Source: a virus. Taken from it: a DNA stretch of 20,212 nt. The stretch lies in the IMG/VR virus record IMGVR_UViG_3300044613_000607, positions 1 to 20,212 of that record; one strand, 5' to 3'. Position 1 is the stretch's first letter, and each line of letters begins with the position of its first letter. Positions 5,648 through 11,207 of the stretch are shown here, piece by piece. Both the position numbers and the translations under genes were made by a program. Below the pieces are notes generated by a model that worked only from the letters and a program-made list of their open reading frames with translations, ran no database searches and was not told where the DNA came from.

Positions 5648-5973
5648 TTGGTTAGCCTTTCTATATTTCTGTCATTAGCTTGTTGGGTACGCCATGCCTC
5701 AAAACGCATCTTGGCGGCTTCTAATTGCCATCTAAGGGCTTCTTTTTGCTCTACCGCTACACCTATGGCTTTGCATAAATCTTGATACTCTTGACTGCGG
5801 TAGGCTTCCCGTTCTTGAGCACCAAGGCTTTGTTCGTCAGTTTGCGACATCTTGATGGCTTTAAGACTGTGCCTAAAGTTCTCAAGCTGGGCCAACTCGC
5901 CTGACGCTTTAGCGTATTGCGGTGCTGTTTTAAATATAAAGTCTATTGCTTCGTGTGGGTCATACTCTTTCAT
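5644..5973 (-). CDS. Conserved helical phage protein, function unknown
   Basis: The 109-residue protein is mainly amphipathic helix with probable coiled-coil stretches. Blocks that look conserved in phage relatives I remember are FRHSLKAI, GAQEREAYRSQEYQDL and EALRWQLEAAKMRFEAWR. Such proteins recur among early/recombination genes of proteobacterial phages, but I know no function. The ATG at 5973 follows directly on the TAG (5976-5974) of the second-frame ORF in the methyltransferase gene, with AAGGAAG upstream as ribosome binding site. The stop overlaps the next start as ATGA. Confidence 0.75.
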   Translation of the reverse strand: MKEYDPHEAIDFIFKTAPQYAKASGELAQLENFRHSLKAIKMSQTDEQSLGAQEREAYRSQEYQDLCKAIGVAVEQKEALRWQLEAAKMRFEAWRTQQANDRNIERLTK

Positions 5974-6943
5974 CTAATCTTCCTTTAAGCACATTCCATG
6001 CTGTTCTTGCCACTTCTGAAACTTGTCCATTGCCAATGGATTTAAGTCTGTCCATCCCAGCGGCCACCCCATTAGCCACTCTACCCACATCGGGTTCAAC
6101 TTCCCACCAGCTTGTGTGCTTAATGCTGTTCCACCCTGTGCGTATTTTTTCTTTCTGTGGCTTGTATCGCTGGCTACTGGAGTACTCCAAATTTTCATCG
6201 AATCCCTGACCGCCTGATTGATTGTGTATTGAGCTGGTTGTCCGCTCGGTCTTACTGGCAACCAAGTTTCTTGTGTTCCCCTGTTCCCGCAATTCGCATC
6301 GGGTGTCGGCCACCTTTGTATCTGTGTTTTGCCTTCTACTAGTTCTTTTAATCCCCTGCCGTATCCCACCGAAGTCCTTGCTGGTTCTTGCGCTCTTGGA
6401 GTGGGCCAAAATCCATATTCTTTCTCTGAGGTGATTTGCACCAACATCGGCTGCCGATAACACTCCCCATTCCGCATCGAACCCCATCTTGGCCAAGTCT
6501 GCAAGGACTGTTCCGAGTCCTCTAGTAGTGAGCATTGGGCTGTTTTCCACAAAAGCGTATTGGGGTCTAACTTCCCCAATAATTCTTGCCATCTCTTTCC
6601 ACATTCCACTTCTTTCTCCGTCAATCCCTGCTCCTTTGCCTGCGGCAGAGATGTCTTGGCATGGAAAGCCGCCCGATACAACATCAACAATTCCTCGCCA
6701 AGCGTTTCCGTCAAAGGTTTGAACATCATCCCAAATCGGGAAAGGCGAGAGTATTCCGTCATTTTGTCGGGCAAGCAATACGCTTGCTGGATATGATTCC
6801 CATTCGACTGCACAGACTGTTCGCCATCCGAGCAAATGTCCCCCAAGTATTCCTCCACCAGCACCTGCGAAAAGAGCCAACTCATTCAATCCATTCCCCC
6901 TGATTACCTTTGTTACCTTTTGTCCATTGGTCTGCAAAGCCAT
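5960..6943 (-). CDS. C5-cytosine DNA methyltransferase (Dcm type)
   Basis: This frame encodes up to 327 residues with all main C5-methyltransferase motifs: FAGAGGG (25-31, motif I), the acidic CAVEWE (44-49), GGFPCQDIS (91-99, catalytic C95), FVENS (131-135, motif VI, with Ser for the common Val), HLRERIW (171-177, motif VIII) and SIGNGQV (302-308, motif X). The variable target-recognition region is about 180-280. No restriction partner is adjacent. The start is uncertain: ATG 6943 overlaps the upstream small gene by 62 bases, whereas in-frame TTG 6889 has AGGGGG six bases upstream and still retains motif I. The 3' end overlaps the next gene by 14 bases. A second long frame on the same strand lies wholly inside it (5974-6885). 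Confidence 0.93.
   Translation of the reverse strand: MALQTNGQKVTKVIRGNGLNELALFAGAGGGILGGHLLGWRTVCAVEWESYPASVLLARQNDGILSPFPIWDDVQTFDGNAWRGIVDVVSGGFPCQDISAAGKGAGIDGERSGMWKEMARIIGEVRPQYAFVENSPMLTTRGLGTVLADLAKMGFDAEWGVLSAADVGANHLRERIWILAHSKSARTSKDFGGIRQGIKRTSRRQNTDTKVADTRCELREQGNTRNLVASKTERTTSSIHNQSGGQGFDENLEYSSSQRYKPQKEKIRTGWNSIKHTSWWEVEPDVGRVANGVAAGMDRLKSIGNGQVSEVARTAWNVLKGRLDERV
5974..6885 (-). CDS. Overprinted ORF inside the C5 methyltransferase gene (303 aa)
   Basis: A same-strand frame shifted by one base is open for 303 codons. It begins MSWLFSQVLVEEY, has LQTWPRWGSMRNGEC (128-142), three spaced WPTPxA/WSTPxA units (160-165, 192-197, 233-238) and ends with LNPMWVEWLMGWPLGWTDL (263-281). 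I remember very similar sequences as hypothetical phage proteins, but could not search. Its ATG overlaps the upstream small gene's stop as ATGA, AGGGGG lies ten bases upstream, and its TAG directly abuts the next ATG, so it fits the operon better than the methyltransferase frame. The alternative is that it is only a conserved shadow of the methyltransferase code. Function unknown; possibly a second product. Confidence 0.55.
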   Translation of the reverse strand: MSWLFSQVLVEEYLGDICSDGEQSVQSNGNHIQQAYCLPDKMTEYSRLSRFGMMFKPLTETLGEELLMLYRAAFHAKTSLPQAKEQGLTEKEVECGKRWQELLGKLDPNTLLWKTAQCSLLEDSEQSLQTWPRWGSMRNGECYRQPMLVQITSEKEYGFWPTPRAQEPARTSVGYGRGLKELVEGKTQIQRWPTPDANCGNRGTQETWLPVRPSGQPAQYTINQAVRDSMKIWSTPVASDTSHRKKKYAQGGTALSTQAGGKLNPMWVEWLMGWPLGWTDLNPLAMDKFQKWQEQHGMCLKED

Positions 6944-7437: not shown

Positions 7438-7584
7438 CTATTTTGTTGCAAGTATATAAAGTCCTACATTACTAAACGCATAACCGCTATATACAACTGC
7501 CATAGCTGTATTACCTTTAAAGCCTTGTTCTATACCTATATAGGCATAAATAAGCCCCGTTACAATAATTAACCAAGAACTCAT
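7438..7584 (-). CDS. Small membrane protein (48 aa, two predicted helices)
   Basis: ATG 7584 overlaps the upstream stop as ATGA and the frame runs to TAG 7440-7438. The product starts MSSWLIIVTGLIYAYIGIEQ, then GFKGNTAMAV and a second hydrophobic stretch ending GLYILATK. Two short transmembrane helices with a central GNT(A/G)M loop recall small membrane proteins in other proteobacterial phages; no function is known. The next gene follows after a GGGGG ribosome binding site that overlaps this stop region. Confidence 0.75.
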   Translation of the reverse strand: MSSWLIIVTGLIYAYIGIEQGFKGNTAMAVVYSGYAFSNVGLYILATK

Positions 7585-8210
7585 AATGCGTCAAAGTTAT
7601 AAAACCATTCATCTTTAGCACTCCATTTAGCGTGGTTCTCTACGCTATAGACCTCGGTAGGTATTTTAAAGTCGGGAGTCTTTAATACAGCAGGCACAAG
7701 CGATACATCGTACCAAAGGCATCTGTTATTGGGCTGGCAAGCAAACTGCCCGTTGTCTAATTTAATAAAGTTATACGACTTATGTTCCTCGACCCCCTCG
7801 CTAAAGCTGGTATCCAAGCGGTTAGCTTCAGGGCTGGCAAAGTCAATCGTGAACAGGTAGTTACCAAAATGAAACTGTTTGTCCTTACCAAAAAACTTCA
7901 CTTTAAGACCTCGTAAATTAGACTTCTCAATTACCGCCATGTCATACGATAGGCAATCCCATATCTGTAGGTGGTCTAAGGGTAGCGGGGATTCTACGGC
8001 TTTCCACACATAAGCATGAATTGGCAGTTTGTCGTACAAAGCCCCGTAATTTGTAAGCATAGACTCGATACGAAATGCTTGACCCTTAATAGCCTTGGCG
8101 GTCATCCATACACAGGGTTCTAGTTCTCCTTGTCCTTGCTCGTGGTTATAAAGAAACTCTCTGCGTACAAAGCATTTAACTGGCGGTATGTTAGCTACTA
8201 AAAATGTCAT
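7581..8210 (-). CDS. Conserved early phage protein, function unknown
   Basis: The 209-residue protein begins MTFLVANIPPVKCFVRREFLY and has WMTAKAIKGQAFRIESML, YGALYDKLPIHAYVWK and a Trp-rich C-terminus (WSAKDEWFYNFDAL). I recall similar early proteins in proteobacterial phages but no function; no nuclease, kinase or DNA-binding motif is evident. AAGGGGGAT lies just before ATG 8210, a strong site of the type used throughout this genome. It is first in the ten-gene minus early operon, with a -10 box and a palindrome immediately upstream. Confidence 0.8.
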   Translation of the reverse strand: MTFLVANIPPVKCFVRREFLYNHEQGQGELEPCVWMTAKAIKGQAFRIESMLTNYGALYDKLPIHAYVWKAVESPLPLDHLQIWDCLSYDMAVIEKSNLRGLKVKFFGKDKQFHFGNYLFTIDFASPEANRLDTSFSEGVEEHKSYNFIKLDNGQFACQPNNRCLWYDVSLVPAVLKTPDFKIPTEVYSVENHAKWSAKDEWFYNFDAL

Positions 8211-8234
8211 TGAATCCCCCTTAAAGACTGTAGG

Positions 8235-8248
8235 TTAAGTAAACTTAA
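8235..8248. promoter_or_regulatory. 14-bp palindrome, candidate operator for the minus early operon
   Basis: TTAAGTAAACTTAA has perfect 6-bp arms around AA. It lies 25 bases upstream of the 8210 start codon and touches a minus-strand TATAAT (8253-8248), so a protein bound here would cover the transcription start. It differs at one position from the palindrome at 11191-11204. Confidence 0.55.
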
Positions 8249-8387
8249 TTATAAGGTATATAAGTACTTTCCCTTATATATGTTACATAAAGTCATTTAA
8301 TGTAATGTTTATATACCTTTATGTATAGATTTTGGCTTTATTTATATACTTACAAGTTAATGTGTATATAACTTATATATAATTTTT
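8249..8387. repeat. AT-rich segment with inverted and direct repeats
   Basis: This stretch is almost entirely A and T and has no credible ORF. AAGGTATATAA (8253-8263) is the exact reverse complement of TTATATACCTT (8309-8319). TTACAT (8283-8288) and ATGTAA (8300-8305) form another inverted repeat. TTATATAC recurs near 8342. It could be a promoter region, an unwinding element of a replication origin, or both; nothing seen decides between them. Confidence 0.55.
8378..8383 (+). promoter_or_regulatory. Candidate -10 box before the structured RNA
   Basis: A perfect TATAAT lies on the plus strand about seven bases before the point where base composition changes and complementary segments begin. 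There is no good -35 hexamer (AGTTAA at 17 bases spacing), so the call relies on the -10 box and on position. Confidence 0.35.
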
Positions 8388-8389
8388 CG

Positions 8390-8817
8390 TATGCGAATCG
8401 GTTTGTGAGGATTAAGGGCGTAATACTCCTATCCGTAGATAGGATGAATTATGCGACTTCGGATGTTTCGGACATCAGTCGTAAATAAATGATGGGTTGT
8501 TTTGCTTGTTCAGGTCTATGTATTACCAAGGCTACCCAGTTTCCCCTGCCGTTAGGCAATAGGACAGTTCCATAATTTTTGCTCATTTATCCGCAAAATA
8601 TGGGGCATTGCTGCCGTTTCGCTTCTGAAGTATTTACGGCCTTTACCGCATCATCACGCTTGTGTGCGGGCTAGACAGAAAGAGAAAACCCCATAAGGTA
8701 GCTCTAAGTTGATACCACTTAACAAAAGAATCCACGACTTTTGCTAAATGCTCAAAGCTACCCTATAGGGTCTTGTGGATTGCAACAAACAGGTATCAAT
8801 CTGCCCCTACAGTATAC
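8390..8817 (+). ncRNA. Candidate large structured non-coding RNA, two domains with pseudoknot
   Basis: About 420 bases without a credible protein gene contain many complementary segments. Domain I (8402-8597) is closed by TTTG..GGATTAA with TTTATCC.CAAA, and holds hairpins 8427-8433/8438-8444 (7 bp, loop CGTA), 8452-8457/8478-8483 enclosing 8462-8466/8472-8476, 8493-8508/8527-8538, and 8547-8550/8555-8558. Domain II (8602-8807) is closed by GGGGCA/TGCCCC and holds 8613-8617/8636-8640 and 8646-8650+8655-8657/8662-8669. Three long helices then interleave: 8690-8703/8756-8770, 8709-8716/8792-8799 and 8729-8737/8773-8781. Two G-U pairs favour the plus strand, while one A-C mismatch would be G-U on minus. 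It resembles the large ornate RNAs of phages (GOLLD, ROOL) in kind, but I cannot assign it to a class. Confidence 0.55.
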
Positions 8818-8824
8818 AACAAAA

Positions 8825-9061
8825 TCAACGCAACTCAGGCCATATCAACTGGTAACTTTCAGGGAATAGGTCTTTGCGGCTTACTAATCCTTTGGATTCT
8901 TGTTCTAACAAAGCCCCCAAATACACCATTTTATCGGCTGGAATACCTGAGTTTTTCCACATGGACACCGCAGGTACGCTAATTTTGCAGATTTTGGCTA
9001 TTTTGGTAGGCCCACCCAGTAACTCGATAATTTGGCTATCGGTAAACATTTTCTTCTTCAT
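8825..9061 (-). CDS. Cro/YdaS-like helix-turn-helix repressor
   Basis: This 78-residue protein has a single helix-turn-helix: QIIELLGGPTKIAKICKIS, then VPAVSMWKNSGIPADKM as turn and recognition helix. That is the pattern of small Cro and YdaS-like phage regulators. The C-terminus ends DLFPESYQLIWPEL, a familiar ending in such proteins. It is transcribed divergently from the recombination genes, as cro or repressor genes usually are. No strong ribosome binding site precedes ATG 9061 or internal ATG 9049. The nearby inverted repeat at 9149 is a plausible binding site. Whether it acts as Cro or as lysogeny repressor cannot be told. Confidence 0.85.
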   Translation of the reverse strand: MKKKMFTDSQIIELLGGPTKIAKICKISVPAVSMWKNSGIPADKMVYLGALLEQESKGLVSRKDLFPESYQLIWPELR

Positions 9062-9113: not shown

Positions 9114-9142
9114 TTGCACAAACGCTTAAATTGCCTTAATAT
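9114..9142 (+). promoter_or_regulatory. Early promoter for the plus-strand recombination operon
   Basis: TTGCAC (9114-9119) and TAATAT (9137-9142) are separated by 17 bases, a good sigma70-type promoter. The expected start is near 9149, about 30 bases before the ATG at 9181. The same pattern, TTGCA(C/G)-N17-TAATATGG, recurs at 11179. A weaker minus promoter for the repressor (TTGTAA about 18 bases before TATTTA) lies in 9080-9110. Confidence 0.65.
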
Positions 9143-11178: not shown

Positions 11179-11207
11179 TTGCAGACAATGTTAAGTTAAC
11201 TTAATAT
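11179..11207 (+). promoter_or_regulatory. Promoter with palindromic operator for the small-gene operon
   Basis: TTGCAG (11179-11184) and TAATAT (11202-11207) are 17 bases apart. Between them TTAAGTTAACTTAA (11191-11204) is a perfect 14-bp palindrome overlapping the -10 box, an ideal repressor position. The palindrome matches the one at 8235-8248 at 13 of 14 positions. The ATG of the next gene is at 11232 after GGGGG. Confidence 0.65.

Follow-up and report, generated by a model that had tools for sequence, protein, structure and literature searches.

Our analysis of a 20,212-nt stretch of viral DNA (positions 1 to 20,212 of IMG/VR record IMGVR_UViG_3300044613_000607, hereafter the window) identified a gene for a structured non-coding RNA at approximately 8805–8395 on the minus strand, behind a Cro-like gene. 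Comparison with homologues shows two structured domains on this strand, here called D1 (5') and D2 (3'), with three pseudoknots, the third in the window's sub-type only; the modular organisation of this phage RNA is unusual, and both of its domains are absent from Rfam. With somewhat better than even confidence, we read it as an early, independently transcribed RNA of ~410 nt whose D2 would act in trans on the host and whose D1 would serve as a terminator-shaped 5' module with pseudoknots.

The analysis confirmed that 8211–8824 is free of protein genes, as a sequence-only reading of this DNA had claimed for the gap. The stretch is flanked by two leftward genes, one encoding a 209-aa phrog_3704 protein (7581–8210, minus strand) and the other a small regulator:

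8825 to 9061, minus strand: Cro/YdaS-like HTH gene (PF15943 E 4e-7, phrog_35 E 1e-13), immediately upstream of the RNA.

Of the 72 loci with sufficient sequence, 66 have D1 behind the HTH gene, and of the other six, four or more carry a different 5' domain. A replication-initiation gene lies downstream of the RNA, and the DNA at 8211–8395 is AT-rich.

The earlier reading had favoured the plus strand, on which its region folds barely better than shuffled sequence (z -1.8); the minus strand folds far better than shuffles (z -5.1, and -6.6 for the 5' domain alone). Among the homologues, G-U pairs on the minus strand stand against A-C by 276:22 in D1 and by 77:5 in D2 of the window's type (type 2, see below), and the D1 covariance model scores 137.6 bits on the minus strand versus 21.5 bits on the plus strand. 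The D1 ratio and the model scores fix the minus strand, and a plus-strand RNA is ruled out, with folding, pair ratios and model scores all favouring minus. The interleaved helices described before are nevertheless there (13 bp, 8716–8728/8738–8750; 8 bp, 8709–8716/8792–8799), accompanied by a 24-nt inverted repeat (8685–8708/8751–8774), and in homologues they are conserved and pseudoknotted. Covariation in many homologues likewise supports the idea of a large, ornate, two-domain pseudoknotted phage RNA. Its two domains hold up and their borders do not, the evolutionary units being 8805–8674 and ~8673–8395 rather than 8602–8807 and 8402–8597.

The flanking proteins, used as queries, led to about 140 IMG/VR loci, and blastn of the intergenic region revealed modular conservation, with the HTH-side part (~8824–8676, including D1) kept where D2 is absent. 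Pattern scans for D1 returned at least 120 stretches each, and nhmmer over all loci found at least 130 distinct full-length D1 relatives in IMG/VR phages, most of which, judging from the collection and from one named relative, would be freshwater phages. A pattern search of bacterial genomes yielded a single genuine D1; the 3.5-kb contig that carries it belongs to a Bacteroidota MAG and is probably phage DNA within the bin.

From 5' to 3', D1 runs through GCAGA (P1), UUGAUAC (P2), AAUCCAC (P3), the 5' arms of P4 and P5, GUGGAUU (P3'), P5', GUAUCAA (P2'), P4' with a U-tract, and UCUGU (P1'). A long P4/P5 hairpin is thereby followed by a U-tract, and P2 and P3 join its bulge and its apical loop to the 5' strand; as P2 crosses P4 and P3 crosses P5, D1 contains two pseudoknots. 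Its elements are as follows:

8674 to 8805, minus strand: D1, the 5' domain, a double pseudoknot of ~132 nt, from covariation in 130 distinct homologues and the covariance-model score.
8675 to 8804, minus strand: P1, GCAGA 8804–8800 with UCUGU 8679–8675, closing D1; a few sequences have GCGGA/UUCCGC.
8709 to 8799, minus strand: P2, UUGAUAC 8799–8793 with GUAUCAA 8715–8709, crossing P4 (pseudoknot 1), from covariation.
8729 to 8781, minus strand: P3, AAUCCAC 8781–8775 with GUGGAUU 8735–8729 in the P5 loop (pseudoknot 2), in many versions.
8687 to 8772, minus strand: P4, a 22-bp helix of 8772–8751 with 8708–8687, the terminator-shaped stem, from covariation.
8716 to 8750, minus strand: P5, a 13-bp helix of 8750–8738 with 8728–8716, from covariation.
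8685 to 8688, minus strand: U-tract at the 3' foot of P4.

In an alignment of 44 distinct sequences covering 42 pairs of P2, P4 and P5, the pairs are formed in 98.6% of cells and 20 of them show two-sided changes. The covariation score is 0.387 versus 0.139 for shuffled alignments (0 of 500 as good), and helices slid out of register reach at most 0.066. Taken singly, P2 is 99.4% paired with two-sided changes at six of its seven pairs, P4 99% and P5 97.6%, each of the latter with such changes at seven pairs; among all D1 homologues P2 occurs in 31 distinct versions. P3 was left unaligned by MAFFT because of its variable distance from P4 and was tested sequence by sequence: its 69 distinct versions contain 712 Watson-Crick and 56 G-U pairs, and in 109 of 130 sequences the native pairing scores above the 95th percentile of pairings with mismatched partners, a few of the failures being parsing errors. 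P1 is less well supported than P2–P5, and GCAG can alternatively pair locally with CUGU; the 3' C of UUCCGC was seen only together with the 5' strand GCGGA. The U-tract has 4–7 U, with at least four in all 130 homologues and five in 113 of them, and D1 combines it with a GC-rich stem in the manner of an intrinsic terminator, the GACCC/GGGGU foot being invariant in the 44 aligned sequences.

By the sequence that follows D1, the loci divide into five groups: type 0 (41 loci), type 1 (29), type 2 (26, including the window), type 3 (25) and type 4 (4). Alignments made for types 0, 2 and 3 revealed compensatory changes in each. Type 4 is CU-rich, with an HNH gene next in some of its loci; such an HNH endonuclease-like gene stands behind D1 where a structured D2 is missing in L014 (4268–4894), L006 and L177. 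For the window's type, the elements are:

8395 to 8673, minus strand: D2 (type 2), the 3' structured domain, ~280 nt with a provisional 3' end, from 26 homologues.
8646 to 8669, minus strand: first hairpin of D2, 8669–8665 with 8650–8646, 100% paired, with two-sided changes at three pairs.
8509 to 8629, minus strand: helix of 8629–8625 with 8513–8509, continued by 8565–8559 with 8519–8514, from covariation.
8484 to 8591, minus strand: helix of 8591–8584 with 8491–8484, a third putative pseudoknot, found by search in the window's sub-type only.

Over the 26 type-2 sequences, the 30 predicted pairs are formed in 99.1% of cells, a figure biased upward by prediction on the same alignment, and covariation is 0.326 versus 0.203 for shuffled alignments (0 of 500 as good); prediction on the same alignment does not explain the strand ratio and the two-sided changes. 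The helix 8629–8625/8513–8509 and its continuation contain three pairs with two-sided changes in 9–10 of the 26 sequences. It is crossed by 8591–8584/8491–8484, in which three of eight pairs show two-sided changes within the window's sub-type.

Type 3 proved to be the Betaproteobacteria-1 RNA (Rfam RF02932; 95–102 bits in the four type-3 loci scanned), reportedly from Weinberg 2017. This sibling domain occupies, in its 25 loci, the same slot behind the same kind of D1, with the Rfam model starting within 1–2 bases of the D1 end; the model covers 120 nt and does not include D1, whereas the conserved type-3 domain is ~200 nt long. The window's D2 does not match RF02932 (gathering score 49.4 bits), even at relaxed thresholds. 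We also noted that the type-3 sequence GGUGGCGAAG...ACGAA.GACUG (L050, 1763–1972, minus strand, and others) resembles E. coli 16S h22–h23, in the S15/S6:S18 region, and it is possible that the Betaproteobacteria-1 RNA acts as a ribosomal-protein mimic. Mimicry of 16S/23S gains little from this comparison, in which single alignments reach only z 1.7–3.

Two candidate control elements flank the RNA:

8811 to 8816, minus strand: candidate -10 element TATACT; in homologues TANNNT stands at a fixed distance.
8235 to 8248, no strand assigned: operator-like palindrome TTAAGTAAACTTAA ahead of the downstream operon; TTAAGN3-5CTTAA is conserved in the loci.

In 120 of 129 homologues TANNNT starts 11–15 nt ahead of GCAGA, versus 149 of 1290 control windows (12%), which shows a -10-like element at a fixed distance from the predicted 5' end of the RNA. 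This spacing would suit a transcript that begins with the RNA's very first nucleotides, with the start expected near 8805–8803. No consistent -35 element was found among the D1 homologues, and standard sigma-70 and terminator scans of the window gave nothing at the RNA ends and did not list TATACT at 8816–8811. In 71 of 119 loci the palindrome TTAAGN3-5CTTAA lies 180–480 nt beyond D1, as against 45 of 1954 control windows, and in none does it lie within 300 nt upstream of the RNA; in several loci it is flanked by TTGACA and a TATACT-like hexamer. The presence of an operator before the next operon and its absence upstream of the RNA suggest two transcription units. At the same time, no consistent intrinsic terminator follows D2 (one was found in 8 of 104 loci and in 1 of 104 shuffled ones, against 15 of 104 on the opposite strand), and read-through into the downstream operon is therefore possible, making the 3' end of the RNA and the separation of the units only provisional.

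Several early genes of the window are preceded by operator-like TTAAGN4CTTAA palindromes (8235–8248, 11191–11204 and, in relaxed form, 9126–9139), probably the binding site of a phage regulator. A second small dyad, AGGGNNNNNCCCT, was noted in 75 of 119 loci (L012, L017, L019, L050 and others), where A-rich sequence surrounds it and D2 and the next promoter lie on either side; it could be either a DNA operator or an RNA hairpin. Elsewhere in the window, two minus-strand reading frames, 5960–6943 and 5974–6885, share ~910 bases in different frames, and both have phage relatives: one is a C5 cytosine methyltransferase (PF00145 E 1e-31, phrog_363 E 3e-68), the other a phrog_1008 'DNA methyltransferase' protein (E 2e-27) that ends KLNPMWVEWLMGWPLGWTDL. 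The pair looks like extensive dual coding. The window also carries a GIY-YIG/NUMOD3 homing endonuclease gene at 614–1216 on the minus strand (PF01541 E 1e-13).

D1 and D2 are each exchanged between phages. One exact version of D1 is combined with three D2 types (1, 2 and 3) and a second one with two (0 and 1), so the two domains recombine as modules; moreover, phages whose HTH flanks are at least 95% identical can still differ in their D1 versions. In five loci, the window's D2 stands, at 93–98% identity, behind an unrelated 5' sequence of the same plan, in which a -10-like TATACT is followed by a 5' hairpin with the loop GGUCUGGAAA; this loop pairs with UUUCCAGACC, which directly precedes the 3' arm of a long hairpin that runs into UUUUU. 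In a scan for type-2 and type-3 D2, the 5' flanks lacking D1 formed 48 clusters, ten of which contain a strong hairpin ending in a T-run (0 of 480 shuffled sequences). As the search required the T-run, its presence in these ten 5' domains is not independent evidence, although in D1 it is. In six of the ten, the crossing helix does better than 95% of mismatched partners. These ten domains are unrelated in sequence, yet the hairpin and U-tract are kept in all, and the pseudoknot in most.

D2 also occurs with no such 5' domain. In some phages Betaproteobacteria-1 lies directly behind a -10-like element after the HTH gene, and among 398 Pseudomonadota genomes sampled, four have it without D1, three of them above the cut-off. 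Two bacterial copies examined closely begin with TATAGT or TATACA and a short hairpin. One bacterial genome (G324) holds three matches (L309, L313 and L314), one of them below the cut-off; the two better ones have a -10-like hexamer and a short 5' hairpin ahead and no D1. D2 can therefore stand alone, with D1 as an optional 5' module. The comparison thus shows D2 exchanged between phages for unrelated structured domains, and D1 for unrelated sequences that retain a hairpin of terminator shape with its U-tract.

No Rfam family matches the window RNA at gathering scores, and relaxed thresholds produced only chance-level hits, mostly microRNA-like and on the long hairpin; nor did either threshold give a family for D1 or for types 0, 1 and 2. 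Membership of GOLLD, ROOL, raiA, tmRNA or group I introns, raised before as a possibility, finds no Rfam match, while the suggestion of a new class is supported, given that D1 and the window's D2 match no family, even though a sibling 3' domain is the known Betaproteobacteria-1. ARAGORN found no tRNA and no tmRNA in the 20-kb window and, with Rfam also negative, a tmRNA is not supported. Nor is a group I intron, in view of the missing Rfam match and the position between intact genes. GOLLD and ROOL are large structured phage RNAs of obscure function, often near tRNA islands, many GOLLD exceeding 800 nt and the ROOL studied measuring 659 nt (PMC12286853). The window RNA, by comparison, is ~410 nt long, has no tRNA in the window and matches no Rfam covariance model, so membership of either class is not supported. 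A literature search, for which subscription journals were mostly outside its scope, gave no description of this RNA.

Blastn against GenBank phages found no match for the window RNA or for type 1 and type 3 loci, and type 0 matched a single phage, ctn9Y15 (MW202674.1), a podovirus from Manatee Spring whose region carries no RNA annotation. It has a type-0-like 3' domain (76% identity over 108 nt), rather than type 2, and a terminator-shaped 5' domain with the crossing helix UUGGCGG/CCGCCAA but a different 5' sequence (20 bits with the D1 model). D1 itself resembles an intrinsic terminator in that a strong stem, P4, is directly followed by 4–7 U, and differs in that the stem encloses a further helix, that its bulge and loop pair with the 5' strand and that a conserved structured domain follows. 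The conservation of that downstream domain implies at least partial read-through of the U-tract.

The main rival to an independently transcribed RNA is a cis-acting leader, in which the structure would be the 5' end of the downstream early/replication operon and D1 an attenuator or a put-like antitermination element. We consider this fairly unlikely. The location corresponds to that between cro and cII-O in lambda, with a Cro-like gene shortly before the RNA and a replication-initiation gene after it, and a leader would fit both a terminator-shaped D1 with its U-tract right at the promoter and the lack of a terminator after D2. The put RNA of phage HK022 binds the zinc-binding domain of the RNA polymerase beta' subunit and suppresses termination. 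It is ~70 nt long, with two stem-loops and a triplex in stem I, and the two HK022 put RNAs resemble each other in sequence (PMC9378689). Like put, D1 is structured and lies close behind an early promoter of the phage; unlike put, it does not have the ~70-nt, two-stem-loop form, being ~132 nt long with P2/P3 crossing P4/P5, and its unrelated counterparts share no sequence, whereas the two put RNAs do. Against a leader also speak the occurrence of D2 types without D1 and the downstream operon's own operator-like palindrome, in several loci with a TTGACA promoter-like element.

An RNA for superinfection immunity or incompatibility, with the hypervariable P2 and P3 strands as specificity determinants and a resident RNA pairing with a like phage's nascent RNA and terminating it at the U-tract, would account for the dozens of P2 and P3 versions on a conserved frame and for differing D1 versions beside nearly identical HTH flanks (at least 95%). 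Free drift of helices whose sequence is unconstrained explains this variability equally well, however, and a tyrosine integrase match is absent from 13 of 14 related phage records (most of them 33–37 kb), which makes lysogeny doubtful; we hold this explanation to be improbable. The compact fold with several pseudoknots might recall a catalytic RNA or an intron, but Rfam gave neither an intron nor a ribozyme apart from a single hit to a plastid intron model, which at 13 bits is chance-level, and the site lies between two intact genes with no interrupted reading frame; we regard this as very improbable. Least credible of all is that the pattern is not RNA but DNA-level inverted repeats (an origin or cruciform) or chance, as the adjacent AT-rich DNA might suggest: crossing helices with compensatory changes, and G-U allowed while A-C is avoided on one strand only, both argue against it.

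Under our preferred reading, that of an early modular RNA, transcription would start at GGCAGA beside the cro-like gene early in infection, and D1 would fold first, its hairpin forming and the bulge and loop being captured by the 5' strand. D1 might then protect the transcript, or partly terminate it at the U-tract and so set the yield of full-length RNA. D2 would be the working part, acting in trans, probably through contact with some protein or machine of the host soon after infection, with a role in host takeover or counter-defence. Action of D2 in trans is argued from modularity: D2 types would be exchanged because the target, such as host factors or defences, changes, and phage mosaicism is common enough that exchange is no proof. 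A U-tract terminator in mid-RNA would sit oddly with an RNA whose full-length form is the product. More tentatively, and at slightly less than even confidence, these RNAs may form a superfamily in which a 5' domain conserved in topology and not in sequence, a pseudoknotted hairpin with a U-tract immediately behind the promoter, gates or protects exchangeable 3' effectors, including Betaproteobacteria-1.

The RNA adds a widespread class for freshwater phages, with unusually clear covariation in its pseudoknots, and gives the orphan Betaproteobacteria-1 RNA a setting, as one interchangeable 3' module in a conserved early-region slot. It shows that phages swap RNA domains as protein domains are swapped. 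With unrelated 5' domains of one topology, the effect of a pseudoknotted, terminator-shaped hairpin behind a promoter can be tested cleanly, and the D2 types could bring to light takeover or counter-defence by RNA among environmental phages.
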